In this document: positions 1-22,984 of the stretch, piece by piece
Layout of the letters: every line of letters begins with the position of its first letter
Position numbering within the stretch: the stretch's first letter is position 1
DNA from: an uncultured Eubacteriales bacterium
GTDB taxonomy: Bacteria > Bacillota > Clostridia > Lachnospirales > Lachnospiraceae
Assembly: GCA_900314845.1 (NCBI GenBank)
Contig: OMWV01000021.1
Span: forward strand, 62,001 to 126,000
Reading direction: 5' to 3'
Length of the DNA stretch: 64,000 bases
Notes under the pieces: model-generated
The model's database searches: none
Told to the model about the DNA's origin: nothing
What the model saw: the letters and a program-made list of their open reading frames with translations, nothing else
Made by a program: the position numbers and the translations under genes

Positions 1-1024
1 GCTCAAGGACAAAATCTACGGAATTGTCAAAGTTGTCCGGAATATGAGCCCAGGAGAACATGGTACCCTGGGAAAGAGGAACATTCCAACCAGCCTCGGT
101 AAGGCTTTCGGAAAGAGCGTGATTTCTTCTGTTATACTCCTCGCACTGGGCAGTTACCGCGTCCTGAGGCCCTGTCAGAGCGGCAATGGCTCCGTACTGG
201 ATAGGGAGGAATATACCGTAATCGATCTGAGATCTGACCTTGGCAAATTTCCTGACTATGGCCTCATTTCCCACAACAAAAGACATCCGGGCGCCCGTAT
301 AATTGTAGGACTTTGAGAGAGAATAAAACTCAACGCCCACCTCCCTGGCTCCGTCAAAGGAAAGGAAAGACCTGCCCGGCCTTCCGGTATAGATGATATC
401 GGAGTAGGCATTGTCGTGGATAACGATAATATTGTGCTTCCTGGCAAATGCAATCAGCTCTTCATAGAAACTGTCGGGAGCTGTGACGCAGACCGGATTC
501 ATCGGATAGGAGACGATCATGAACCTGGCCTCATCCGCCAGCTGATCCGGGATAGAATCGAAATCTATGAGAAAGTTATTCTCAGGCAGCAGGTCGTAGG
601 TCCTCACATCTGCCCCGCAGAGGAAGGGGCCGGCTGAAAATACCGGATAGCCCGGATTGGGAACAAGGACGATGTCTCCTCTGTCGCACAGGGCCAGGCT
701 GATATGGGCCATTCCCTCCTGTGACCCGTATATGGAAGTAACCTCGCTGCGCTTTAAGTCAACTCCGTATCTCTGCTTATAATGATAGATAACCGCGTCT
801 AGCAGCTCGGGCAGGTCTGCCAGAGCGTACTTGTAATTCTCCGGGTCGCCTGCTGCCTGGCAGAGGGCGTCTATGATATGCTGACCGGGCTTAAAGTCAG
901 GGGTTCCCACCGACATGTTGTAGACGGTGCGTCCCTGAGCGATCAGCTGGTTCTTTTTTTCATTGAGAGCAGAAAATATGCCCTGCTCAAATGTCTCCAG
1001 TCTCTCGGGAAATTTAATATCCAT
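1..1024 (-). CDS. Class I/II PLP-dependent aminotransferase (3' end outside window)
   Basis: Fold-type I aminotransferase, translated from ATG at 1024 (MDIKFPERLETF), with a purine-rich ribosome site just upstream. The frame is open to the window edge, so the C-terminus is missing; about 341 codons are visible. The PLP-lysine motif SLSKSYNYTGAR, the cofactor-ring Asp in HDNAYSDI and the N-terminal YNMSVGTPDF stretch place it with the LL-diaminopimelate/alanine/aspartate aminotransferases. Substrate specificity cannot be read from the sequence. It starts 33 bases after the Xaa-Pro aminopeptidase stop on the same strand and is probably the last or a late gene of the run that begins at 4897. A cytosolic role in amino acid synthesis or nitrogen transfer is inferred from family and context. 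Confidence 0.85.
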   Translation of the reverse strand, partial: MDIKFPERLETFEQGIFSALNEKKNQLIAQGRTVYNMSVGTPDFKPGQHIIDALCQAAGDPENYKYALADLPELLDAVIYHYKQRYGVDLKRSEVTSIYGSQEGMAHISLALCDRGDIVLVPNPGYPVFSAGPFLCGADVRTYDLLPENNFLIDFDSIPDQLADEARFMIVSYPMNPVCVTAPDSFYEELIAFARKHNIIVIHDNAYSDIIYTGRPGRSFLSFDGAREVGVEFYSLSKSYNYTGARMSFVVGNEAIVRKFAKVRSQIDYGIFLPIQYGAIAALTGPQDAVTAQCEEYNRRNHALSESLTEAGWNVPLSQGTMFSWAHIPDNFDNSVDFVLE

Positions 1025-5089: not shown

Positions 5090-6133
5090 GTGAATACAGA
5101 GAATATGACCATGAAGTTTATCCGCAAGCTCCCCATACCTGCTGAGATAAAGAGCAGATATCCTGTTGCGGAGCGGCTGGCGGAAGTAAAGAAGCAGCGC
5201 GATTTAGAGGTACAGAAGATATTTACAGGCGAATCAGATAAATTTCTCCTTGTCATCGGACCCTGTTCGGCTGACAGCGAGGAGCCTGTCATGGAATATA
5301 TACACAGACTTGCCAGGGTTCAGGAGAAGGTGGCAGACCGGATATTTATGATCCCCCGCATCTACACGAACAAGCCCAGGACAACGGGCAAGGGCTATAA
5401 GGGAATGCTCCATCAGCCCGATCCGGAGAAGAAGCCGGATCTTCTGGAGGGACTTTTGGCTATCCGCCGCCTGCACACAAGAGTGCTGGAGGAGACCGGC
5501 ATGACGACTGCCGATGAGATGCTCTACCCGGAGAACCACCGGTATCTGTCCGACCTGCTCAGCTATGTAGCTGTCGGCGCCCGTTCCGTCGAGGACCAGA
5601 GCCACAGGCTGACAGCCAGCGGCATCGGGATCCCCTGCGGCATGAAGAATCCGACGAGCGGCGACTTCCACGTCATGCTCAACTCCATAGAGGCAGCTCA
5701 GAGCCCTCAGGCTTTCCTCTACAGGGGCTGGGAGGTCCACACCCAGGGCAACCCCCTCACACATGCCATACTCAGGGGCTCCAACAGCAAACACGGCAAC
5801 AACGTCCCCAACTACCACTACGAAGACCTGAGAAGGCTCTATGAGATGTACTCGGAAAGAGGCCTCGAGAACATGGCCTGCCTTGTCGATACAAACCACT
5901 CAAACTCTGACAAGCAGTACATAGAGCAAATCCGTATCGCCAGCGAGGTTCTGCACAGCCGCAGATATTCGGGCGATATCCGCCGCATGGTCAAGGGCTT
6001 CATGATAGAGAGCTACCTGGTCGACGGCAAACAGAATATAGGCGACGGTGTCTTCGGCCAGTCCATCACAGACCCCTGCCTGGGCTGGGAGAAGACAGAA
6101 AAGCTCATATATGAGATAGCTGATCAGGTTTGA
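5090..6133 (+). CDS. aroF: 3-deoxy-7-phosphoheptulonate synthase (DAHP synthase, type I)
   Basis: First enzyme of the shikimate pathway: it condenses phosphoenolpyruvate and erythrose-4-phosphate. I start it at GTG 5090 (VNTENMTMKF, 347 residues), because an ideal GGAGGTG at 5077-5083 lies six bases upstream; the ATG at 5075 would contain that ribosome site. Family blocks include LLVIGPCSADS, RIYTNKPRTTGKGYKG and IPCGMKNPTSGDF. The HGNN and VDTNHSNSDKQY blocks carry substrate-binding residues. It is the AroF/G/H (type I alpha) class, about 350 residues. Which aromatic amino acid inhibits it cannot be decided by eye. The gene is alone on the plus strand and converges with trmO, leaving only three bases between the stops. 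Confidence 0.94.
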   Translation: MNTENMTMKFIRKLPIPAEIKSRYPVAERLAEVKKQRDLEVQKIFTGESDKFLLVIGPCSADSEEPVMEYIHRLARVQEKVADRIFMIPRIYTNKPRTTGKGYKGMLHQPDPEKKPDLLEGLLAIRRLHTRVLEETGMTTADEMLYPENHRYLSDLLSYVAVGARSVEDQSHRLTASGIGIPCGMKNPTSGDFHVMLNSIEAAQSPQAFLYRGWEVHTQGNPLTHAILRGSNSKHGNNVPNYHYEDLRRLYEMYSERGLENMACLVDTNHSNSDKQYIEQIRIASEVLHSRRYSGDIRRMVKGFMIESYLVDGKQNIGDGVFGQSITDPCLGWEKTEKLIYEIADQV

Positions 6134-6136
6134 TCT

Positions 6137-6814
6137 TCACTTTGTCACTTCAATCACGGTCAGGATATTGCCGTCTACCGTGAATCTTACATTATATCCG
6201 GCGAAACTGATCCCGTAGATCCGGTCCGGGCTGTGCTGATAGCCCGGGCGGGGATCCTGGGCCAGAAGACCGGTCAGAGATTCCCGCATCTGCGCGGGAA
6301 TTTTTTCTGCCGTATCCTCCCTGTATCTTACCTCAAGGCGGTAATCCCTGTAATCGTCCGAGAATCCCCCTCTTGCGCCGGGATGAGCCTCGACGCCGGG
6401 ATGGTAGGGCTTGATATCCAATATGGGCGTCCCGTCCTTCATATCCACGCCGCCCACATAAATGACCGGCCCCTGGGGCGTATTCATCTCTATCTTCTCA
6501 AGCCGGACACAGGAAAGCCCGATCGGATTAGGCCTGAAAGGCGAGCGGGAAGCAAAAACCCCGACTTTTTTGTTGCCTCCCAGTCTGGGCGGCCGGACAA
6601 GCGGCGTAAAAGGCCGGTTCCTGGGAACCTCAGAAAAATGCCAGATCAGCCAGATGTAATCATAGCCCTCCAGCCCCCTCAGGGCATTGGGATCCCTGTA
6701 CCCGGGTTCGAATACGATCCGCCCCTGCAGGGAAGGGACAAGGCCGCTCTGCCTGGGAATACCGAATTTCTCATCAAGATCCGTATCAATATGTGCGATA
6801 ATTTTCAGATCCAT
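6137..6814 (-). CDS. trmO: tRNA (N6-threonylcarbamoyladenosine37-N6)-methyltransferase TrmO
   Basis: SAM-dependent enzyme of the TsaA/YaeB family, which N6-methylates t6A37 in some tRNAs. The 225-residue protein starts at ATG 6814 (MDLKIIAHIDTDL), with GGAGGGAG upstream; a start five residues earlier is poorer. The beta-barrel signature is clear: GLEGYDYIWLIWHF, RPPRLGGNKKVGVFASRSPFRPNPIGLS and GVDMKDGTPILDIKPYHP. The length fits bacterial TrmO. It converges with the DAHP synthase gene with a 3-base gap, so its terminator must lie inside that gene's end; I found no clear one. Confidence 0.9.
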   Translation of the reverse strand: MDLKIIAHIDTDLDEKFGIPRQSGLVPSLQGRIVFEPGYRDPNALRGLEGYDYIWLIWHFSEVPRNRPFTPLVRPPRLGGNKKVGVFASRSPFRPNPIGLSCVRLEKIEMNTPQGPVIYVGGVDMKDGTPILDIKPYHPGVEAHPGARGGFSDDYRDYRLEVRYREDTAEKIPAQMRESLTGLLAQDPRPGYQHSPDRIYGISFAGYNVRFTVDGNILTVIEVTK

Positions 6815-6849
6815 ACTCTCCCTCCTCACCGGCGCGGCCGGAAGAAGAC

Positions 6850-6903
6850 AAAAAGGCTTCTGACCGCCGCCCTCTTTGCCGAGCCCGGATCAAAAGCCTT
6901 CTG
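6850..6903 (-). terminator. Probable terminator of the 6941-8044 gene
   Basis: On the minus strand AAGGCTT (6900-6894) pairs with AAGCCTT (6859-6853) around a GC-rich loop that may fold further. The run TTTTTG follows. It lies about 40 bases downstream of the stop at 6941. The stem is short, so this is moderate support. Confidence 0.45.
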
Positions 6904-6940
6904 CAATTTCAAATATCAATACGTTCTCTGTCTGCGGGCA

Positions 6941-8044
6941 TCAGCCGATATGCCTCAGAGAATCCTCAAGCTGCGTCTGTTCCTGCCTGAGATTTCTTCT
7001 CTCCGTCACAATATCCGCATTCTCCTTAAACTTCTGCATGACAGACTCATCGTCCGACTTGAGAAATCCTCTGGCAAATGCATCCGGATACTGAAACTTC
7101 TTTATGCCTGCCGGGAACTCAACCTCTATCTTGCCCCCGCTGCAGCTCTTCACAATGCCGCTGCCGAATGTCTTATGCTCAACAGAGCTTCCCACAGGAT
7201 CCGGCAGTTCTACATCAGCGCTCAGCTTCCTGAGCCTGTCCTCCACATCAAGAAGCCTGTCCATGAGATTCTCTCTCTCCTCGCGGATGACCGCGCGGCT
7301 GAGTCTCTCCTTGACCGTCATCTTCTCCTTGTTGGCATCCAGATGATAAGTATCCGTGCAGAGCATGATATCATAGACCAGCATATGAAGGTCGTCATCT
7401 ACCGTAATGCCCAGATCATCGACCCTCTTCTGATTCAGCTCCAGGACTCTGGGAAAATCCTTCAGCTCTTGAAGGATCTCATCGCACATCTTGTAATATT
7501 TTCTTAAAGAGAATGTCCTGTTGTGGCCGAAATCCTCGCTGAACTCTATGCTCATGGCCCAGCTGTCGGCAGTGGAAGGTCTGTAATAATAGTTCTCCTT
7601 TGGTCTTACAAGACTGAGGTAGCCGATCGCTGAGCTGAGCGTCTGCTTATAGATATCGATCTTATCCATATACATGCTGAGATGGCGGTTGATATCATCC
7701 ACGAATGAAACGATACGGTCCTGCCTGTCCTCCAGATCGCCGCCGTCATCCTTCAAAAGGTCTTTAAACTCCGACCTTACAAACTCGACCTCCTCATCGT
7801 GCTGCAGGAGGATTGTGATGCCGCCGGAGGGCTGCACACGGCTGCTTTCCATCAATCTGTTCGTATTCTCAGCAAAATTCTCAAACTCAAGGAGCAGTTC
7901 GTCTGAATCCAGGTTCAGAGTCGAGCAGGCCTGCATGACCTCCCACTTATGTCCTGCATCGGACTTATTCTTTCCTTTTTCATTCATCTCGTCAAACCGG
8001 GCAGCATACTGTTCAAGGATAGCTTCTAGTTTTTCTCTGTACAT
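6941..8044 (-). CDS. Unrecognised helical protein with C-terminal tudor-like segment
   Basis: 367 residues, acidic, predicted mostly helical, with coiled-coil-like stretches near both ends (MYREKLEAILEQYAARFDEM and the tail NLRQEQTQLEDSLRHIG). There is no signal peptide or membrane segment, so it is probably cytosolic. Near residues 290-335 a beta-rich block (VGSSVEHKTFGSGIVKSCSG, then EVEFPAG) matches the pattern VxHxxFGxGxV seen at the C-terminus of UvrD/PcrA helicases and in other small tudor/SH3-like modules. That suggests protein-protein docking. I do not recognise the family and assign no function. The gene stands alone, with its own promoter at 8118-8146. Confidence 0.75.
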   Translation of the reverse strand: MYREKLEAILEQYAARFDEMNEKGKNKSDAGHKWEVMQACSTLNLDSDELLLEFENFAENTNRLMESSRVQPSGGITILLQHDEEVEFVRSEFKDLLKDDGGDLEDRQDRIVSFVDDINRHLSMYMDKIDIYKQTLSSAIGYLSLVRPKENYYYRPSTADSWAMSIEFSEDFGHNRTFSLRKYYKMCDEILQELKDFPRVLELNQKRVDDLGITVDDDLHMLVYDIMLCTDTYHLDANKEKMTVKERLSRAVIREERENLMDRLLDVEDRLRKLSADVELPDPVGSSVEHKTFGSGIVKSCSGGKIEVEFPAGIKKFQYPDAFARGFLKSDDESVMQKFKENADIVTERRNLRQEQTQLEDSLRHIG

Positions 8045-8117
8045 GGCTCTACTCTCCTATCCAAACATCGGCAGCAAATACTCAAAATCTACCTATATAT
8101 AATCCCTTTTCATGATA

Positions 8118-8146
8118 ATTATATCACAAAAACCAATGATTTTCAG
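8118..8146 (-). promoter_or_regulatory. Promoter of the 6941-8044 gene
   Basis: On the minus strand CTGAAA (8146-8141), 17 bases, then TATAAT (8123-8118). The -10 is perfect and the -35 matches four of six. It lies about 75 bases upstream of the start at 8044. Confidence 0.6.
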
Positions 8147-8247
8147 CATTTTTCTGCCTGTTCTCTGTCCAGCCGGGAGAAGCATGCACTATTTATAGAA
8201 AATAAACTGCACGATCTGAAGATTTTCTGATAAATTTCCCAGAGGAG

Positions 8248-9888
8248 TTATTCTTCTTCGGGCTTTGAAAGATCGACGCTGCGGATGATCTTGCGCAGGG
8301 GGAGAATACTTCTCGCATTTACGGAAAGTTCATCAACACCCATGCGCAGGAAGGTCTCTGTGAGGGTCGGGTCAGCGCCCAGCTCTCCGCAGATGCCTAC
8401 CCAGCAGCCATGGCGGTGTCCGGCCTCTATCGTCATCTGGATCTCCTTGAGGACAGCCGGGTGATGGGTGTCGGAGAAGGGCTCCAGCTTAGCGTTCTGA
8501 CGGTCGATCGCCAGCGTATACTGGGTAAGATCGTTCGTGCCGAGCGAGAAGAAATCTACATCTTCCGCCAGTGTATCAGCGCAGATAGCAGCGGCGGGCG
8601 TCTCAACCATGATTCCGATCTGGATGTTATCAGCAACAGCCTTGCCTTCGGCAATCAGCTCACTGCGGCACTCTTCCAGGATCTCCCTGCACTCGCGAAG
8701 CTCACGCTGGCTGATGATCATGGGAAACATGATGCCGAGATTGCCGTATGCGGAAGCACGGAGCAGGGCTCTGAGCTGGCGCTTGAAAAAGTCTTTCCTG
8801 GTCAGACAGATGCGGATGGCGCGATAGCCAAGGGCGGGATTGTCTTCCTTGTCCAGATGCATATAGTCGATGGTCTTGTCCGCTCCGATATCACAGGTGC
8901 GGATGATGACGAGCTTGGGAGCCAGAGTCTCCAGTACCCTCTTGTATGCATCAAACTGGGCATCCTCGCTGGGATCGTCGGGGCTGTTAAGGTAGACGAA
9001 CTCAGACCGGAAAAGGCCGACGCCTTCAGCGTCGTTCATCTGTACCGAGCCTACATCCTCGGGGCCGCCGATGTTGGCAAAAAGCCTGACCGTTTTCCCG
9101 TCCAGAGTCGTGCTGGATTTTCCTTTCAGTTCCTGGAGAAGGGCTTTCTGGCTCAGGTCTTCGTTTCTCTTTTTAGTAAGTGAATCGAGCAGGTCTTTTG
9201 TCGGCTCAATATAAGCGCAGGAATTATAACCGTCCAGAATCGCCAGTTTTCCGTCCCAGTCATCGGAAACATCCTTACACTGGATCAGCGTGGGAAGATT
9301 CATGCTGCGGGCGAGAATGGCGGTGTGGCTTGTTGAACTTCCCTCTTTCGTGATCAGACCCAGCAGAAGAGACTTGTCCAGGCGGACAGTCTCAGACGGC
9401 GCCAGATCATCGGCCACCAGAATGCTGGGCTCGGTCCCCTGAAGGGAATCCGCGTCAAGTCCCAGCAGAACAGACACAACAGAGTTGCCGACGTCGATCA
9501 CATCAGCGCTTCTGGCCTTGAAATAAGGGTCATCCATATCTCTGAACATCTGGGCTACATTGTCAAAGCCATGCTGAGCCGCATATTCTGCAGAATGGTG
9601 CTGTTCCTCGATAATGGACTTGACAGCATCCAACAGATCATCGTCATCCAGCATATCCATATGGAACTGGAAGATCCCGGCACTTTCCTCGCCGGCAGAT
9701 TTCACTGCCTTTTCATACAGAACCTGCTGCTGGTTCTGGACCTTCACTCTTGCCTGCTCAAATCTCTCAAGTTCCAGATCAGGGTCGTCTACGATATTCT
9801 CATTGATCTTGAATTCGGGAGCTTTATAGATACGTATCCTTCCAATGGCAATTCCATTCAGGATGCTGATACCCGTAACAACCTGCAT
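8248..9888 (-). CDS. ptsI: PTS enzyme I (phosphoenolpyruvate-protein phosphotransferase)
   Basis: Transfers phosphate from phosphoenolpyruvate to HPr, the first step of all PTS sugar uptake. The 546 residues are slightly short of the usual 570. The swivelling phosphohistidine motif GSSTSHTAILARSMNLP is at about residue 190. The PEP-binding TIM barrel contains GGPEDVGS, LFRSEFVYL, LGYRAIRICL, IGIMVETPAAA, FSLGTNDLTQY and CGELGAD. The start MQVVTGISILNG follows GGAGGG. It lies downstream of ptsH with an intrinsic terminator-like hairpin between (9912-9951), so its level is probably set by read-through. It is cytosolic. It should energise the sucrose-type EII at 10394 as well as other EIIs elsewhere. 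Confidence 0.96.
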   Translation of the reverse strand: MQVVTGISILNGIAIGRIRIYKAPEFKINENIVDDPDLELERFEQARVKVQNQQQVLYEKAVKSAGEESAGIFQFHMDMLDDDDLLDAVKSIIEEQHHSAEYAAQHGFDNVAQMFRDMDDPYFKARSADVIDVGNSVVSVLLGLDADSLQGTEPSILVADDLAPSETVRLDKSLLLGLITKEGSSTSHTAILARSMNLPTLIQCKDVSDDWDGKLAILDGYNSCAYIEPTKDLLDSLTKKRNEDLSQKALLQELKGKSSTTLDGKTVRLFANIGGPEDVGSVQMNDAEGVGLFRSEFVYLNSPDDPSEDAQFDAYKRVLETLAPKLVIIRTCDIGADKTIDYMHLDKEDNPALGYRAIRICLTRKDFFKRQLRALLRASAYGNLGIMFPMIISQRELRECREILEECRSELIAEGKAVADNIQIGIMVETPAAAICADTLAEDVDFFSLGTNDLTQYTLAIDRQNAKLEPFSDTHHPAVLKEIQMTIEAGHRHGCWVGICGELGADPTLTETFLRMGVDELSVNARSILPLRKIIRSVDLSKPEEE

Positions 9889-9911
9889 AATGTAACCCTC
9901 CTGCTGATGAT

Positions 9912-14275: not shown

Positions 14276-16222
14276 TTATTTTCCTGCTTTTCCTGTCTGT
14301 CTGTACTTCTCAGCTAAAGGTCTGTGCGCGGCCTCGATCCGCTCATGCACGGTCAGGACAGGGTTGGAGCTCTCACTGAAGGAAGTCAAAAGCCATGCAA
14401 AATCACGTCCGGGAATGCCGACAGCCTTGGCCGGACGGATCTGACCGGTAAAGCAGTCATAATAGATCTCCTCTTCATTGACCCAGGCCGTCTGGTCTTC
14501 ATCACTGAAATTAAAGAGTCCGATCAGCTTGCAGCCTCTATAATAGCGGCCGATACCAAGAACGTGGTCATTCCAGGTCTCAACGATCCAGGTATCCGCG
14601 CCCGGCTCAAAGACCTCACAGTTAGCGCGGAATTCTTCCAGTCTCCTGAGTCCGGCGAAGATCCTGCCCTGACGGCTGTTCTCATCCTCCCGCATAGCAA
14701 CCTCGTCCCAATGCAGTTTTCCGCGATGCAGATAACGGGAATCATCCCATTTCAAAGGATCCTCATGGTAACTGTAATCATTGAGCTGGCCGATCTCATC
14801 ACCCGAATAGAGGACCGGAATACCGCTCAAAGTGAAAAGGAAGGCGTGAAGCATGATATCCAGGCGGATCGCGCGGTCAAGCTTAGCCGGATCCTTCTCA
14901 AACTCAGCTGCCTCGATCCCGCACAGGGAAGCCGTCGTTCCGCAGAGCCGCGCGTCCCCCAGCCTGGGATCGTCGTTGTAAAGCTCGCCGCGGGAATCGA
15001 CTCCGTAGATGGCTCCCTTCAGATAATCATTGAGAAACTTCTTATGAGCCACTTCCGTAATGCCAAACTGGCTCAGAAACTGATAGTCAAGCCCCCAGCC
15101 GATATCATCGTGGCAGCGCAGGTAATTCAGAAATGTATATTGTTTCGGCAGAGCAAATACCTGCTCCAGCTGATGTCTGAGCAGGCGGACATCCTTGGTC
15201 GCAACCGTGTTCCAGGTGGAAGCCATTGTCGTTACATTGTAAAGCATATGGCATTCCGGCTTCTCGACGGTTCCAAAATAGGGAGCGACCTTGGAGGGTT
15301 CCATAACCACCTCGCCCAAAAGCAGCGTACCCGGGCAGACGATCTCGCATGCCATCCGCATCAGTCTGACCAGGGTATGAACCTGGGGAAGATTCCGGCA
15401 GTCCGTTCCCAGAGTCTTCCAGATATAGGGGACAGCGTCCAGCCTCACGATGTCGACCCCGTGATTGCACAGGTTCAGCATATTCGCCGTCATATCATTA
15501 AATACTGTAGGATTTCTGTAGTTCAGATCCCACTGGTAGGGATAAAATGTCGTCATGACGACCTTGTGTGTCTCCTCATTCCAGGAAAAATTGCCAGGAG
15601 CCGTCTGGGGAAATACCTGAGGAACCGTCTTCTCAAATTCATTAGGGATCTGCCAGTTGTCAAAAAAGAAATACCTGTCCTGATACTCCTTTTCACCTGC
15701 CTTGGCCCTTACAGCCCACTCATGATCCTCGCTGGTATGATTCATGACAAAATCAAGGCAGACGCTCATGCCCCTGGCATGGCACTCATCGCTCAGCTTC
15801 GCCAGATCTTCCATGGTTCCCAGCTCAGGCTGGACCTTCCGGAAATCCGAAACTGCGTATCCACCGTCGCTCCTGCCCTCCGGGCTCTGCAGAAGTGGCA
15901 TCAGATGCAGATAATTAACCCCGCAGTCCTGGATATAATCCAGATGCTCCCTCAGCCCCTCCAGGCTTCCCGCAAAACACTGCGTATACATCAGCATGCC
16001 CAGCATAGCATTGTTGGCATACCAGTCGATATCCTCCTCTCTGGCCTGATCCCACTCTTTCAGCTCCTGCTTTCTGGAAGAATAATAATCATACAGCATG
16101 CTGCAGAAATACTCAAAAGCATGCTCATCATTATAAAGTTCATTGTAGAGCCATTTCATCTCGTCATAATGGCGCTCTAATCTCCGGACAAATTCCGGTT
16201 CCAGATCCTGATCTTCGAACAT
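14276..16222 (-). CDS. GH13 subfamily 4 amylosucrase-like glucosyltransferase/hydrolase
   Basis: Alpha-retaining enzyme of the amylosucrase family, which cleaves sucrose to fructose and transfers or releases glucose. The 648 residues start at ATG 16222 (MFEDQDLEPEF) after GAGGG. The helical N-domain (1-100) precedes the barrel. Catalytic residues: nucleophile Asp in GVDIVRLDAVPYIWK near residue 261, acid/base Glu in LLLGEVVME near 303, and Asp in LRCHDDIGW near 371. VLYSGDEIGQLNDYSY is the amylosucrase-type segment. Length matches amylosucrases (about 640), not sucrose phosphorylases (about 490). Cytosolic, no signal peptide. It shares the locus with a PTS that should deliver sucrose-6-phosphate, so the true substrate may be phosphorylated. 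It is the first gene of a unit with the LacI-type and HAD genes. Confidence 0.9.
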   Translation of the reverse strand: MFEDQDLEPEFVRRLERHYDEMKWLYNELYNDEHAFEYFCSMLYDYYSSRKQELKEWDQAREEDIDWYANNAMLGMLMYTQCFAGSLEGLREHLDYIQDCGVNYLHLMPLLQSPEGRSDGGYAVSDFRKVQPELGTMEDLAKLSDECHARGMSVCLDFVMNHTSEDHEWAVRAKAGEKEYQDRYFFFDNWQIPNEFEKTVPQVFPQTAPGNFSWNEETHKVVMTTFYPYQWDLNYRNPTVFNDMTANMLNLCNHGVDIVRLDAVPYIWKTLGTDCRNLPQVHTLVRLMRMACEIVCPGTLLLGEVVMEPSKVAPYFGTVEKPECHMLYNVTTMASTWNTVATKDVRLLRHQLEQVFALPKQYTFLNYLRCHDDIGWGLDYQFLSQFGITEVAHKKFLNDYLKGAIYGVDSRGELYNDDPRLGDARLCGTTASLCGIEAAEFEKDPAKLDRAIRLDIMLHAFLFTLSGIPVLYSGDEIGQLNDYSYHEDPLKWDDSRYLHRGKLHWDEVAMREDENSRQGRIFAGLRRLEEFRANCEVFEPGADTWIVETWNDHVLGIGRYYRGCKLIGLFNFSDEDQTAWVNEEEIYYDCFTGQIRPAKAVGIPGRDFAWLLTSFSESSNPVLTVHERIEAAHRPLAEKYRQTGKAGK

Positions 16223-16265
16223 AAATTTACCCTCGCATTGTACAAAAGTATCAATAAAAATCAAA

Positions 16266-16318
16266 TGTAATCGTTATCATCTACATAAAATTATAAAAAT
16301 TTTACATATTTTTAGCAA
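16266..16318 (-). promoter_or_regulatory. Amylosucrase promoter with cre/LacI operator
   Basis: On the minus strand: TTGCTA (16318-16313), 17 bases, TATAAT (16295-16290). TGTAATCGTTATCA at 16266-16279 (plus) is a complete match to TGWAANCGNTNWCA and overlaps the expected start of transcription. It fits repression by the LacI-type protein encoded downstream, or by CcpA. Confidence 0.75.
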
Positions 16319-16415
16319 CAATAATACAAGCATATATATTTACAAACTTTCAACACGTATTTTGGTCAGAATCACTAAATCCTCCATCCGTCAGGGAAAC
16401 AGGCGCGGCATCGAC

Positions 16416-17626: not shown

Positions 17627-18526
17627 CTAAAGCAGCTCCTGCAGGATCGTGAGTCTGGCCGGATCCACAGCCTGACCGAAGCTGTCAAGCTGCCCCATGA
17701 CGATCGTCTTGTTTTTGCCGTGGTAATCGCTGCCCCCGCTGACCAGAAGGCCGTGTCTTTCTGCCTCCTCAAGCAGAAAATGGATCTCCTCCTCAGAATA
17801 TCGGGAGTAATAGCACTCCAGGCTCTGCAGGCCATAGGACATAAGAACCTTGAGCTGGGCTTTAAATTCTTCCGGGCTGATATGTCTCTCGCCCTCGCCC
17901 CCCAGGGGATGGGCCCAGCTGGATATGCCGCCGGCACTTTGTATGGCCTCAAGAGACTGACGGGCCTCTATCCGGGAGATCCCTGCCGGCACCGGCGAAT
18001 GCCTGCTGTTCAGATACCGCTTAAAGGCATCCGTCACGGAATCCGCCAGTCCTCTCTTCATCAGGATCAGAGCGATATGCGGCCTGCCGGGGCTTTCATG
18101 AGAATAGATCCAGTCCTTTTCCTCCCGGGTCAGGACGATCCCGTCGTTTTTTTTGAGATTTTCTATCCTTATCTCCATCTTTGCGCTGCGCTTTGAGACA
18201 AGATCCCGGACGGCAGCCGAGAGCTGCCTCTCGTCAGGATCACAGCAGTAGCCGAGAATATGGCAGAGGCCGGCATCCGTCCGGGAGGAAAATTCCACGC
18301 CGGGAAGAAAGGAAAGCTGTCTGCCGCCTGCATGGATACGGACAGCCCGGCCTCTGGCAAAGCCAGTCCCCGGCAGGAGCTGCCTGGCTCCCTCCATAGT
18401 GTCGTGGTCTGTGACCGCGAAGATATCCATGCCGCAGGCGGCCGCTTTCTCTGCCGCCATGAACGGGCTGTCGCTGCCGTCCGAGGCAGTCGTATGCATA
18501 TGAAGATCAACTTTTGAATTTATCAT
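17627..18526 (-). CDS. PHP-domain phosphoesterase (nucleoside bisphosphate phosphatase-like)
   Basis: 299 residues of the PHP superfamily, a metal-dependent TIM-like barrel. Metal-binding motifs: DLHMHTTASDGS at residue 7, VTDHDTMEG, LPGVEFSS, SWAHPLGG, and SGGSDYHGKNK near the end. Length and motif order match the YciV/TrpH type, characterised as 3',5'-nucleoside bisphosphate phosphatase or 5'-3' exonuclease on short RNA. Cytosolic. Its start overlaps the end of the Na/Pi cotransporter gene by 20 bases, so the two are cotranscribed. A link to phosphate recovery is plausible from the pairing but not shown. Confidence 0.87.
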   Translation of the reverse strand: MINSKVDLHMHTTASDGSDSPFMAAEKAAACGMDIFAVTDHDTMEGARQLLPGTGFARGRAVRIHAGGRQLSFLPGVEFSSRTDAGLCHILGYCCDPDERQLSAAVRDLVSKRSAKMEIRIENLKKNDGIVLTREEKDWIYSHESPGRPHIALILMKRGLADSVTDAFKRYLNSRHSPVPAGISRIEARQSLEAIQSAGGISSWAHPLGGEGERHISPEEFKAQLKVLMSYGLQSLECYYSRYSEEEIHFLLEEAERHGLLVSGGSDYHGKNKTIVMGQLDSFGQAVDPARLTILQELL

Positions 18527-20384
18527 TTTCTTCTTCTTTCATCTTATAGGGATCCATGCTCTCCAGGGCAGGATCGGGTACGGACCCGTCGAATATCTTC
18601 TGAGGTCCTTCCACAGCTTCCTCCTGAAGACTGAGCAGATGATAGATATCCTTATATTCATCAAAAAGCTCTGTGAAGGAAGCCTCTCCTCCATATTTTA
18701 CCTCATGAAGATAGCCATGTGTATCATAAGATGAATTTCCGGTCTGGATAATGCAGACCCCGACATTGGAACAGTGGTCGGATACCCTCTCACAGTTTGT
18801 CAGGAAGTCATTGATCAGGATGCCCAGATCACCGCTGCAGATCCCGTCCCGGATCCTCTGGATATGCCTTGATTTTATCTCCTTTACCAGATCGTCTATT
18901 ACCTCCTCCAGAGGCTCTATATAGCTGGCCGTCTTGCTGTCGTCATTTTCAAAGGCCTTTAGAGTGATCGCCAGGATCCGGGAGACAGCCTTTGAGAGAA
19001 TGCCCAGCTCGCCTCTGGCTATATTGGAAAACTGATTTTCATTCTCCCTCAGCTCGCCGGCCGTCTTTGTCATGTTTATCGCGTGGTCGCCGATCCTCTC
19101 GAAATCATTGATGCAGTGGAGCATCTCCGAGACAGCGTTGTTGTCCTTCTGGGTGAGCGGTTTTATGGCGATCCTGGAGAGGAAATCATTGAGCTTATCC
19201 TCCAGCTCATCCAGGCGCTGCTCCATGGCTATAACCTCATCTATGGCTTTTTCATTATAATCATCAAATATGCTCAGGGAACGGATGAAGGAATTCCTCG
19301 CCAGATTCGCCATCTCCACCGTTCTCTCACGGCACTGGGCTACGGCAAGGCCGGGGGAGACCAAAAGGCGCTCATCAAGCAGGACCGTATGATTTTCATA
19401 TTCGTCCTCAGGCACGGGAAGGATCTTCTCGGCAAGCTTTACGATCTTCTTTGAGAAGGGAAGGAGCACAACGATCGTTCCGATATTAAAGACTGTGTGG
19501 AATACAGCGATCTGAAATGCGCTTACCGTATGGGAAAACAGATCAAGAGACAGAAGATATCTGGCGGCAAGATAGACAGCCATCCAGATGATGGTGCCAA
19601 GGATCTTTATGCTGACGTGGATCACCGGCACTCTTTTTGCCTTGCGGCTTACACCGATACCGGAGATCACGGCCGTAACGCAGGTGCCGATATTAGCTCC
19701 CATGATAAGAGGCACGGCCATGCCCAGGCTGATGGAGCCTGTCAGGGAAAGAGCCTGAAGAACGCCGATCGAGGCGGCAGATGACTGGATGACCCCTGTA
19801 AAGGCCACTCCCATCAGAAGTCCCAGGAAGGGATTGTCAAAGGCAATGAGAAGGTTCTGAAACTGGGGCATGTCAGCCAGAGGAGCTACAGAGGCAGACA
19901 TCATAGACATGCCGTACATGAGGACGCCGAATCCGCAGAATATGGTTCCGATATCCTTCTTCTTCTCGCTCCTGCAGGCCATGGTCATGACAACGCCGAT
20001 CAGGGCAACAATAAGGGAAAAATTCTCGGGTTTCAGGAAGGAGACGATGACATTGTTCGTCTCTATGCCGTTCAGACTGAGGATCCAGGCGGTAAGCGTC
20101 GTACCGATATCGGAGCCCATGATGGTGACTACGGTCTGGGAAAGCTCCATGATGTTAGAGTTTACAAGTCCTACCAGCATGACCGTAAATGCTGAGGATG
20201 ACTGGATCGCTATGGTGATGACCGCACCCAGCATCAGGCTCTTAAAAGGGTTTGATGTCATTTTCCTGAGAACGCCCTCAAGCTTTCCTCCCGCCATCTT
20301 CTCCAGATTCGCCGACATGACATTCATGCCGAACAGGAAAAAAGCAAGTCCTCCGAACAGCGCAATAAAATTATAGATTGTCAT
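18507..20384 (-). CDS. Na/Pi cotransporter family protein with C-terminal PhoU domain
   Basis: 625 residues. The N-terminal 330 carry about eight membrane segments in two inverted repeats, each with a QSS motif (VITIAIQSSSAFTVMLVG and GVIQSSAASIGVLQAL), the hallmark of NptA/SLC34-type sodium-phosphate cotransporters. Residues about 345-560 are two helical PhoU-like repeats (SEMLHCINDFERIGDHAINM and FLTNCERVSDHCSNVGV). Bacterial members of this group may act in phosphate uptake or efflux; YjbB of Escherichia coli exports phosphate. The start follows GGAGGAAAAG. It is the first gene of a two-gene unit with the PHP phosphatase. The promoter region holds four hexamers at 11-base spacing that look like PhoP boxes. 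Confidence 0.92.
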   Translation of the reverse strand: MTIYNFIALFGGLAFFLFGMNVMSANLEKMAGGKLEGVLRKMTSNPFKSLMLGAVITIAIQSSSAFTVMLVGLVNSNIMELSQTVVTIMGSDIGTTLTAWILSLNGIETNNVIVSFLKPENFSLIVALIGVVMTMACRSEKKKDIGTIFCGFGVLMYGMSMMSASVAPLADMPQFQNLLIAFDNPFLGLLMGVAFTGVIQSSAASIGVLQALSLTGSISLGMAVPLIMGANIGTCVTAVISGIGVSRKAKRVPVIHVSIKILGTIIWMAVYLAARYLLSLDLFSHTVSAFQIAVFHTVFNIGTIVVLLPFSKKIVKLAEKILPVPEDEYENHTVLLDERLLVSPGLAVAQCRERTVEMANLARNSFIRSLSIFDDYNEKAIDEVIAMEQRLDELEDKLNDFLSRIAIKPLTQKDNNAVSEMLHCINDFERIGDHAINMTKTAGELRENENQFSNIARGELGILSKAVSRILAITLKAFENDDSKTASYIEPLEEVIDDLVKEIKSRHIQRIRDGICSGDLGILINDFLTNCERVSDHCSNVGVCIIQTGNSSYDTHGYLHEVKYGGEASFTELFDEYKDIYHLLSLQEEAVEGPQKIFDGSVPDPALESMDPYKMKEEENDKFKS

Positions 20385-20413
20385 TCTTTTCCTCCAGTAT
20401 ATGACGCCTCTTC

Positions 20414-20462
20414 TTTACATGGCGCATACACTGATTTTACACATATTTTACATATCTGTAAA
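20414..20462 (-). promoter_or_regulatory. Promoter with PhoP-box-like repeat array before the Na/Pi cotransporter
   Basis: Minus strand promoter: TTTACA (20462-20457), 17 bases, TAAAAT (20439-20434). On the plus strand the hexamers TTTACA (20414), CATACA (20425), TTTACA (20436) and TTTACA (20447) recur exactly every 11 bases. This is the spacing and sequence of PhoP boxes known in Bacillus. Overlap with the -10 suggests repression, or use of the array as the promoter itself. Confidence 0.55.
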
Positions 20463-20489: not shown

Positions 20490-21248
20490 CTATTTTGAGA
20501 AAAATTCTATAACGGTATGGATGGCCGCGTCCATCATCTTCGGATTGCGGAAGGGATGGTCCGCCCCCTCAACGGGGACAAATTCTATCACATTGCTTTC
20601 GCAGAATTCCTTAGAATCCTCTATGGGGACCCGCTCGTCCTTTGTCCCGTGGATGACGAGCATGCTGTCAGCCCAGTCAAAATACTCGTACCCGCGCACG
20701 TCGCTCTTTGCCAGGTCTTCAAAAAGAGACTTGTCAACTTTCATCTTCCGCTCATAGCCGATCTCAACCTCACGGCCTTTCTCCAGCTTGTCCAGGTCGG
20801 ACTCCTTCACATTTTTCAGCATCAGGTCATGCATGCGAAGGCCGGGGGCCCGCAGGGCGATCTTTGCAAAGGGATTCCCGTTTTCCGCTATATATTTTAA
20901 GGTCAGATAGCCGCCGAAGCTTACGGAATAATTAAAGATAGTTTTTGCCCCCAGGGTCTCCCGGGCATATTTTACGATCAGGGACAGATACTCCATGCAC
21001 TCAGAAAGTTCCAGCTTCTTGCGGCAGTCCTTGCCGTGACAGGGCCAGTCAAAGGCGATGACGGCGTCATTGCCGTGCTTTGCCAGATACTTGTCGGCAA
21101 AACGGCTGATATTGGCTACGTCCTTGCTGGAGCCATAGCCATGGGTGCAGATAACCACCCGGTCAAAGCTGCGGCTTTTTCCGTCGCTCATGATCTTGCA
21201 GCGGATAGAAGTTCCTTCCTCGTTTATGTCAAAATTTTTTTCTTTCAT
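20490..21248 (-). CDS. Alpha/beta hydrolase (serine esterase/lipase-like)
   Basis: About 252 residues. The nucleophile elbow is NYSVSFGGYLTLKY (residues near 125), the Asp is in VIHGTKDERVPIEDS and the His in VEGADHPFRNPK, giving a full triad. RVVICTHGYGSSKD is the oxyanion strand. No signal peptide, so cytosolic; the substrate is unknown, perhaps an acyl ester or peptide. I prefer ATG 21248, six bases after AGAGG; an ATG six bases earlier overlaps the stop of the ABC exporter gene. It is the last gene of the run that begins with the TrmH-type gene at 25537. Confidence 0.87.
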   Translation of the reverse strand: MKEKNFDINEEGTSIRCKIMSDGKSRSFDRVVICTHGYGSSKDVANISRFADKYLAKHGNDAVIAFDWPCHGKDCRKKLELSECMEYLSLIVKYARETLGAKTIFNYSVSFGGYLTLKYIAENGNPFAKIALRAPGLRMHDLMLKNVKESDLDKLEKGREVEIGYERKMKVDKSLFEDLAKSDVRGYEYFDWADSMLVIHGTKDERVPIEDSKEFCESNVIEFVPVEGADHPFRNPKMMDAAIHTVIEFFSK

Positions 21249-21250
21249 GT

Positions 21251-22984
21251 TCATCCTCTCATCCTGTCATCCGCCAGTTCCTGAGTCCTGAGAAGCTTAG
21301 CGTACTCCCCGCCCCGGGCAGCCAGCTCCCTGCCGGAGCCTTCCTCCACGATCCTGCCGTCCTCTATGACGACAATGCGGTCCGCGTTCTGCACGGTGGC
21401 CAGCCTGTGGGCGATCACAAAGGAAGTCCTTCCCTTCATCAGTTCCTCAAAACTCTTCTGGATCCTCTTCTCCGTGATCGTATCCAGGGCGGATGTCGCC
21501 TCATCCAGGATGAGGATCTTCGGATCCTTGAGGAAGATCCTGGCAATGGATACTCTCTGTCTCTGGCCCCCGGACAGGCGGGTCCCCCGCTCGCCCACAT
21601 AGGTATCAAAGCCGTCCGGCATATCCATGATATCATCATAAAGCTCTGCCCGGCGGGCTGCCGCCATGACATCTTCGTCACTGGCATCCGGACGCCCGTA
21701 GCGGATATTTTCCATGATCGTATCCGGGAAAATGAAGACGTCCTGCTGAACGATCCCCACAGCGCCGCGCAGGGAGGCCTTTGTCACATCCCGGATATCC
21801 GTCCCGTCTATGCTGATGGACCCGTCCGTCACATCGTAAAAACGGGGGATCAGCTGGCAGAGTGTCGATTTTCCTCCGCCGGAGGCGCCGACAACGGCTA
21901 TCATCTGACCGCCGTCTACATGAAGGCTGATATCTGTCAGGACTTCCCGGGCATCTTCGTACTGAAAGCTTACATGATCGATATCAATGACGCCCTCCTT
22001 TACCTGCAGCTGACCTGCCCCTTCCTTCTCCCTGACTGTGGGCTCAAGCCTCATGATGCTGTCAAAGCGCTGCAGCCCCGCGTACCCGCTGGCAAATACC
22101 TCGGCGAACTGGGCCAACTTGCGGATGGGAGTGATAAATGTCGTGACAAAAAGGGTGAATGTGATCAGGTCTATGTAGTTGAGCTCACCCTCCATGATAA
22201 GAAGGCCGCCCGCGGCGATGACAAGGGCCGGCATGAGGCCCATGAAAAATTCCTGATAGGCATTGAAAAGGCCCATGGCATGGTAAAAATCCTTCTTTGC
22301 CCCCTTGAACTGTCCATTTGCGTGGTCAAAACGGGCTTTTTCCACCTTCTCGTTTGCAAAGGCTTTTGCTGTCTTTATGCCTGATATGCTGGACTCTATA
22401 TCCGAGTTAATGGAAGCCATCCTGACCTTTACGTTTTTGGAAGCATTTGACATTCTCCTCCTCTGGCGCATGATGATGGCAAGGAAGATCGGCAGAAGGA
22501 TGAGAACGACAAGGGCCAGCCTCCACTCGATGGAGAACATGACGATAAGTGCCCCCGTTATGGTGAGCAGGGAGATCAGAAGGTCTTCCGGCCCGTGGTG
22601 GGACAGCTCCGTGATGTCAAAAAGATCTCCTGTCAGCCTGCTCAGCAGGGCTCCCGTCCTGTTGTGGTCATAAAATTCAAAATCCAGGGTCTGCAAATGC
22701 CTGAAAAGGTCTTCCCTGATATCGGCCTCCACCCGGACGCCGAATGTGTGGCCCCAGTAGGTCATGACATAGTAGCAGACAGCCCTGAGCAGATAGGAGA
22801 TCCCCACAAGGCCCATGACGATGAAAAATGCATGGAAAGCCCGGTCCGGCAGCATCTGGTACATGGCGCGTCTGGATATGATGGGAAAGGCAAGGTCTAT
22901 GAGGGAGGCTATGACCGCGCAGACCATATCCAGGATAAAGAGCTTTCTGTGCGGCTTAAAATAGGTCAGTAATGTTTTTATCAT
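21251..22984 (-). CDS. ABC transporter, fused permease and ATP-binding protein
   Basis: 577-residue type IV ABC half-exporter. Six membrane helices lie in residues 1-315. The nucleotide-binding domain has Walker A GASGGGKSTLCQ, Q-loop GIVQQDVFIFPD, signature TRLSGGQRQRVS, Walker B KILILDEATSALD and H-loop FVIAHRL. Such proteins export lipids, peptides or drugs. As a single half-transporter gene it should act as a homodimer, because no partner half-transporter is adjacent. It starts one base after the exodeoxyribonuclease stop. Substrate unknown. Confidence 0.93.
   Translation of the reverse strand: MIKTLLTYFKPHRKLFILDMVCAVIASLIDLAFPIISRRAMYQMLPDRAFHAFFIVMGLVGISYLLRAVCYYVMTYWGHTFGVRVEADIREDLFRHLQTLDFEFYDHNRTGALLSRLTGDLFDITELSHHGPEDLLISLLTITGALIVMFSIEWRLALVVLILLPIFLAIIMRQRRRMSNASKNVKVRMASINSDIESSISGIKTAKAFANEKVEKARFDHANGQFKGAKKDFYHAMGLFNAYQEFFMGLMPALVIAAGGLLIMEGELNYIDLITFTLFVTTFITPIRKLAQFAEVFASGYAGLQRFDSIMRLEPTVREKEGAGQLQVKEGVIDIDHVSFQYEDAREVLTDISLHVDGGQMIAVVGASGGGKSTLCQLIPRFYDVTDGSISIDGTDIRDVTKASLRGAVGIVQQDVFIFPDTIMENIRYGRPDASDEDVMAAARRAELYDDIMDMPDGFDTYVGERGTRLSGGQRQRVSIARIFLKDPKILILDEATSALDTITEKRIQKSFEELMKGRTSFVIAHRLATVQNADRIVVIEDGRIVEEGSGRELAARGGEYAKLLRTQELADDRMRG

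Follow-up and report, generated by a model that had tools for sequence, protein, structure and literature searches.

An inverted array of Pho-type boxes over the predicted promoter of a PhoU-domain Na/Pi cotransporter gene in an uncultured Lachnospiraceae bacterium

Introduction

Does a short array of repeated hexamers in front of a Na/Pi cotransporter gene place this gene under phosphate control, and if so, with which sign? The array lies in a stretch of 64,000 nucleotides from an uncultured Lachnospiraceae bacterium, here called the window. It consists of four forward-strand hexamers, TTTACA, CATACA, TTTACA and TTTACA, which follow one another at steps of exactly 11 bases, as the initial annotation had described them. 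In Bacillus subtilis, the boxes of PhoP-activated promoters are situated upstream of the -10 element. The boxes themselves are given as TT(A/T/C)ACA-N4-6-TT(A/T/C)ACA in PMC12404567. The array resembles them in its hexamer, its 11-base step and its number of four boxes, in a genome that has phoPR, and it differs from them in being inverted and placed over a predicted -10; PhoP binding is putative here. Repression of promoters by PhoP~P at low phosphate has a precedent in B. subtilis tagAB/tagD, since PhoP~P is described as repressing tagA and tagD (PMC13403408, PMC6232261). The targets there serve teichoic-acid synthesis, whereas the gene considered here encodes a PhoU-domain phosphate transporter. 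In a small literature search, conducted mostly outside the subscription journals, no description was found of the present arrangement or of a Lachnospiraceae Pho motif.

Results and Discussion

The array and its locus

The array is contained in the 105 bases that separate an alpha/beta-hydrolase gene from the Na/Pi cotransporter gene (Table 1), and no forward-strand gene that it could serve in its own orientation was found at the locus. Three of the four hexamers are exact and box 2, CATACA, is off-consensus, with all four in register, so that the array presents the TT(A/T/C)ACA box of PhoP/PhoB sites about every 11 bases. The downstream gene had been annotated as coding for a PhoU-containing phosphate transporter, and the domain search agrees: the matches to PF02690 and PF01895 are both above cut-off, a Na_Pi_cotrans domain being combined with C-terminal PhoU as in proteins of the NptA type, and the match to NF037997 (172.5 bits) is likewise above its cut-off. 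Because the Na/Pi gene and the PHP-domain phosphoesterase-like gene overlap by 20 bases, the two are probably co-transcribed. A search of the window against Rfam gave no matches at gathering thresholds, and a riboswitch reading was therefore dropped. A conserved neighbourhood was considered and rejected as well; neither the hydrolase nor the PHP gene lies beside the Na/Pi gene in 80 GTDB loci, with the exception of a weak PHP match in one of them (L067).

Table 1. Features of the array, the genes around it and the predicted promoter elements, in window coordinates
Feature	Position	Strand	Basis and remarks
Pho-type box 1, TTTACA, nearest to the gene	20414..20419	+	Sequence
Pho-type box 2, CATACA, degenerate	20425..20430	+	Sequence
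Pho-type box 3, TTTACA, overlapping the minus-strand -10	20436..20441	+	Sequence; boxes 3 and 4 score 27.0 bits on the motif of relatives
Pho-type box 4, TTTACA, within the spacer of the minus-strand promoter	20447..20452	+	Sequence; exact TTTACA-N5-TTTACA with box 3
Na/Pi cotransporter with C-terminal PhoU domains, 625 aa, putatively regulated gene	18507..20384	-	PF02690 190.7 bits, PF01895 88.8 bits; ATG at 20384
PHP-domain phosphoesterase-like gene, overlapping the end of the Na/Pi gene	17627..18526	-	Reading frames, domain search
Alpha/beta-hydrolase gene upstream of the array	20490..21254	-	Reading frame, domain search
Putative -35, TTTACA	20457..20462	-	Consensus scan, statistically weak
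Putative -10, TAAAAT, 17 bases past the -35	20434..20439	-	Consensus scan
Shine-Dalgarno-like GGAGG, 6 bases ahead of the ATG	20391..20395	-	Sequence
Alternative -10-like TATACT	20396..20401	-	Sequence; transcript would begin inside or after GGAGG

The four-box pattern with at most three mismatches occurred once in the window and was absent from all 100 dinucleotide shuffles; since it had been derived from the array, the test flatters the array. The exact pair TTTACA-N5-TTTACA was found twice in the 2,297,972 bases of the genome, where base composition predicts about 0.24. The genome has three Na/Pi-cotransporter genes, and both pairs precede genes of this kind; the second pair stands before an operon of a pstS-like and a Na/Pi gene on contig C57. 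The two-box pattern with one mismatch was not enriched genome-wide (32 matches versus 30 for the reversed control). Only a near-perfect match together with its neighbouring genes is therefore informative, and the list of one-mismatch matches was used as evidence only for matches ahead of a phosphate gene. All genome-wide statements here come from pattern searches, while the motif scan presented below covered chosen stretches only.

Regulator, kinase and related sites in the genome

The initial annotation had proposed a search for phoPR, and a candidate pair was located directly after pstSCAB-phoU; the refuting condition named there, a genome lacking any PhoP homologue, therefore does not apply. 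On contig C52 the genes pstS, pstC, pstA, pstB and phoU are followed by those for an OmpR-family regulator (L033:14085-14759) and a histidine kinase. The best NCBIfam model for the regulator is PhoB, with 241 bits under a cut-off of 296, and the best models for the kinase are PnpS (315 bits) and PhoR (275 bits), both under their cut-offs; with scores all below cut-off, we take the pst-linked pair as a PhoP/PhoB-type regulator and a PhoR-type kinase. Arrays similar to the one in the window, which the initial annotation had also proposed to look for at pst genes, were present: Pho-type repeats stand ahead of pstS, and in addition ahead of ppx-ppk and of all three Na/Pi genes. The third Na/Pi gene, on contig C10, is preceded by TTTACT-N5-TTTACA and TTAACA-N5-ATTACA. 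One further match, 140 bases ahead of typA on contig C18, was examined and not counted as a Pho site.

A Pho motif in related bacteria

Upstream regions of Na/Pi-PhoU genes from relatives were searched for an exact pair, defined as TT[TAC]A[CT]A-N5-TT[TAC]A[CT]A within 250 bases upstream. The GTDB set comprised 79 of 80 loci, L080 being left out for its too short upstream sequence. Here a coding-strand pair was found in 16 of the 79 loci, versus 0.40 in shuffles, and a noncoding-strand pair in 1 of 79, versus 0.42. The Lachnospiraceae set consisted of 29 loci and 80 fetched stretches from among the matches listed; its members were chosen by rank and by a match start near residue 1, and the gene of the window was excluded. 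In this set, 57 of 109 genes among the matches listed had a coding-strand pair, versus 0.45 expected, and 5 of the 109, again among the matches listed, had a noncoding-strand pair, versus 1.05 in shuffles. The two sets are not independent, since L174 and L175 repeat L048 and L094, and L246 seems to repeat L116.

The 57 motif sites were taken as one per promoter, using the first exact pair, and the 53 of them with full flanks were aligned. The alignment reads AT-TTTACATAGATTTTACATA; another box is found at +33, and a TAT..T resembling a -10 occupies +48..53 as counted from box 1, an arrangement to be expected of an activator site. The motif scored at least 17 bits ahead of 7 of 14 pstS-like genes, in all cases on the coding strand; this scoring covered 14 (L284-L297) of the 29 pstS loci from other genomes. 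As a control, no site of at least 20 bits was found in 53,732 positions within Na/Pi coding sequence. Among 340 other ORFs there were seven coding-strand and four noncoding-strand carriers of the motif, and three of the seven coding-strand carriers are, by matching positions, phoP genes (L052, L059 and L111). On account of the pstS and phoP carriers, the controls and the enrichment at Na/Pi genes, we consider it very probable that the motif serves these bacteria as their Pho box and that the Na/Pi-PhoU genes belong to their Pho regulon. The family motif TTTACATAGATTTTACA, together with the further box and the -10, offers a ready tool for mapping Pho regulons in Lachnospiraceae.

Two observations can be added on phoP itself. 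The motif at the three phoP genes suggests autoregulation of phoP. In many Clostridia the Na/Pi-PhoU genes adjoin phoPR: a PhoP homologue of at least 190 bits was found in 16 of the 80 GTDB loci, in 15 cases on the strand of the Na/Pi gene.

The closest relatives of the gene in the window behave otherwise. The 57 motif carriers among the 109 listed homologues have the same motif at the same gene, yet it was seen in none of the nine closest orthologues (at least 60% identity), which, among the matches listed, had no site of at least 20 bits on either strand. Coding-strand sites were counted in 64 of 107 genes outside this close orthologue group versus 0 of 9 inside it (Fisher p = 4.8e-4, relatedness ignored). 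The protein group of the close orthologues thus does not seem to belong to the PhoP-activated set.

A weight matrix was built from the 57 sites, all from other genomes and none from the genome studied here, and was run over 221 kb of that genome. The scanned sequence comprised 205 kb of distinct sequence, a 16-kb stretch being held twice, and was partly preselected, as stretches outside the window were picked for regulators, for Na/Pi or pst genes, or for pattern matches. Within it the window array ranked first, with 27.0 bits, above the maxima of all six Markov runs (10.8-20.9). It was followed by the sites at ppx-ppk (23.1 bits), in an intergenic region of contig C63 (20.9), at pstS (20.4) and at the C57 operon (19.1). 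The C10 Na/Pi gene has a site of 16.8 bits; the scores at pstS, C57 and C10 fall inside the range of the null maxima. A weaker Pho-like site in the window itself (16286-16321; 18.4 bits, inside the null range) is likewise on the noncoding strand, a short way ahead of the minus-strand gene 14276-16264. The likeness to the repeat and spacing of Bacillus PhoP boxes, from which the initial annotation had started, is supported by the phoPR pair, by the sibling sites and by the family motif, and the array is in all likelihood a Pho-type operator.

Orientation of the array and the promoter beneath it

Relative to the Na/Pi gene, the array is on the noncoding strand, opposite to the other Pho sites of the genome. 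Among the 109 family promoters from the matches listed, sites of at least 20 bits were present on the coding strand only in 61, on both strands in three and on the noncoding strand only in four, and the window array is of this last kind. In the array's own orientation there is no -10 in the canonical slot. The array thus does not have the arrangement of a PhoP-activated promoter, in which a coding-strand site is joined by a -10 near +48, counted from box 1.

Between the two genes, the strongest sigma-70-like match is TTTACA-17-TAAAAT (20462-20434, minus strand), and boxes 3 and 4 cover the -10 and the spacer of this predicted promoter. By usual spacing from TAAAAT, transcription would start near 20427, within box 2. 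Boxes over the core promoter or start are what would be expected of a PhoP-repressed promoter, and the array shows this placement with respect to a promoter that is predicted. An overlap with the -10 of a minus-strand promoter had been claimed before, and it holds in so far as the boxes do cover the best promoter match; the promoter call taken alone is weak, because three such matches occur in 2 kb versus 1.3 expected.

We also considered whether orientation alone could serve as proof of repression, and dropped this argument. In two of the flipped-only relatives (L279 and L202), partly read by eye, the boxes are located over or downstream of promoter candidates, and in the two others (L189 and L224), read in the same way, they are located upstream of them. 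In addition, S. aureus pstS is reported to have a PhoP consensus in its upstream region in the form of the reverse complement (PMC12404567). One of these relatives belongs to a genome, G049, with two Na/Pi genes: L257, on contig C12, has coding-strand boxes, while L279, on contig C13, has flipped boxes only, over a promoter candidate.

Proposed control and alternative readings

We lean somewhat towards the reading that PhoP~P represses the Na/Pi-PhoU gene at low phosphate by means of the inverted array on its promoter. Provided that the site is of the Pho type, repression would probably be the outcome. When phosphate is scarce, the PhoR-type kinase would phosphorylate PhoP, and PhoP~P would occupy the boxes, where four 11-bp repeats give room for two regulator dimers arranged head to tail. 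At the other Pho promoters, in this genome and in the family, coding-strand boxes upstream of the -10 would be expected to lead to activation. Here the inverted array spans the spacer, the -10 and the transcript start, and bound PhoP~P should for this reason block RNA polymerase. The Na/Pi gene and the overlapping PHP phosphoesterase gene would then be on at high and off at low phosphate, and at low phosphate pst and the two paralogous Na/Pi genes would take over. These two paralogues (C57 and C10) carry what look like activator-type sites, in the layout expected of S. aureus nptA. The sign of control at the array is an inference, and orientation alone is not decisive for it. Repression under phosphate scarcity, which had been proposed from the outset, is thus plausible on sequence grounds. 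The accompanying idea of a phosphate exporter is unsupported; the direction of transport is not readable from the sequence of the Na/Pi protein, and its best-studied PhoU relative, NptA of S. aureus, is described as a phosphate importer, with PhoPR inducing it when phosphate is low (PMC13170248). NptA has the same order of domains, Na_Pi_cotrans and then PhoU, and differs in that nptA goes up as phosphate falls, while the layout here predicts the reverse.

It is on NptA that an opposite reading can be built, according to which PhoP binds the array and activates an NptA-like importer, either from the weak -10 TATACT (20401-20396), which would have the boxes some 12 to 50 bases on its upstream side, or by acting in either orientation. 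The distance of 12 bases from the last box to TATACT is near the roughly 9 of canonical sites. The induction of nptA through PhoPR, the 64 of 107 family genes outside the close orthologue group with activator-type sites, and the two flipped-only relatives with sites upstream of promoter candidates all point the same way. A transcript starting from TATACT would, however, have a leader of about 5 bases and would lose the GGAGG; moreover, the array is opposite to the other Pho sites of the genome and covers a better promoter match. We regard activation as unlikely. Another OmpR-family regulator could read the array instead, for example the WalR-like one on contig C46, whose best model is YycF/WalR (266 bits, under the cut-off of 340). 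On the minus strand the array reads TGTAAA-N5-TGTAAA, a perfect match to the WalR box TGTWAH-N5-TGTWAH, and a sodium:phosphate symporter of C. difficile appears in the Wal-OFF table of the same source (PMC9210968). The pattern is nevertheless not enriched in the genome (11 matches versus 16 for the reversed control). The annotated part of its 11 matches includes all three Na/Pi promoters, and the motif is otherwise carried here by phosphate genes; the one derived from foreign Na/Pi genes is found also ahead of pstS and phoP genes. The flanks beyond the hexamers, AT before and TA after, fit the family Pho motif. Control by such a regulator is improbable.

We give a similarly low standing to an array that is inert or a relic, whether PhoP binds it without effect or it is a chance match in an AT-rich gap. 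The array is not conserved in close orthologues, and many E. coli PhoB sites have been reported as transcriptionally inert, those being intragenic (PMC10294691). The array, by comparison, is intergenic and on the promoter of a phosphate gene, represents one of the two exact pairs in the genome, and scores above all six null runs. The sequence also includes an inverted repeat, TTTACA-GATA-TGTAAA (minus strand, 20462-20447), symmetric at 14 of 16 positions and extending from the -35 into the spacer. This symmetry could be taken for the operator of a dimeric repressor, to which the direct repeats would be incidental; the direct repeat, though, runs for four units past the symmetry and fits the family motif, and we find such an operator very hard to credit.

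Repression by PhoP~P, the reading towards which we lean, would resemble in its logic the case of the S. meliloti low-affinity transporter Pit, described as being regulated reciprocally to Pst (PMC8829014), with the second transporter off while Pst is on; Pit differs in belonging to another transporter family and a distant bacterium. The parts involved are known ones. What differs is their combination: a Pho array stands inverted on the promoter of a PhoU-domain transporter gene, in a genome where the paralogues have activator-type arrays. A wider and rather doubtful proposal is that one of the three Na/Pi-PhoU paralogues has had its control reversed in sign by a Pho operator flipped onto its promoter, with G049 as a second instance. 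In S. aureus, Na/Pi-PhoU proteins have recently been shown to contribute to the silencing of PhoPR (PMC13170248). Were the sign reversed, the cell would swap PhoU-bearing transporters as phosphate changes, thereby altering its transport route as well as its set of PhoR-restraining PhoU domains. If Lachnospiraceae activate most of these genes through PhoP and repress one, the phosphate circuit of these Clostridia would include a sign-reversed PhoU-domain transporter.

Other phosphate genes of the genome

The C57 operon contains a lipoprotein-like PstS homologue (L034:7615-8460, minus strand) that overlaps the Na/Pi gene at 5910-7622. It looks circularly permuted, with residues 171-276 corresponding to PstS 73-182 and residues 43-163 to PstS 192-318. 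Colinear relatives with 33-38% identity were found in 11 loci (L299, L301-L306, L308-L311) in a search of 40 genomes. The 1.5-kb flanks of these loci showed no Na/Pi gene.

On contig C63, Pho-like boxes at 173790-173832 (L040:5790-5832; 20.9 bits, possibly by chance) are placed between the 3' side of a glpQ-like gene and the start of an AAA-type ATPase gene. The pattern match between these two genes, C63:173805, was examined and not counted as a Pho site. Finally, three Pho-type boxes (L039:6589-6616) precede the operon of ppx (6750-7718) and ppk (7706-9892), encoding exopolyphosphatase and polyphosphate kinase, and these boxes would place polyphosphate turnover under phosphate control.
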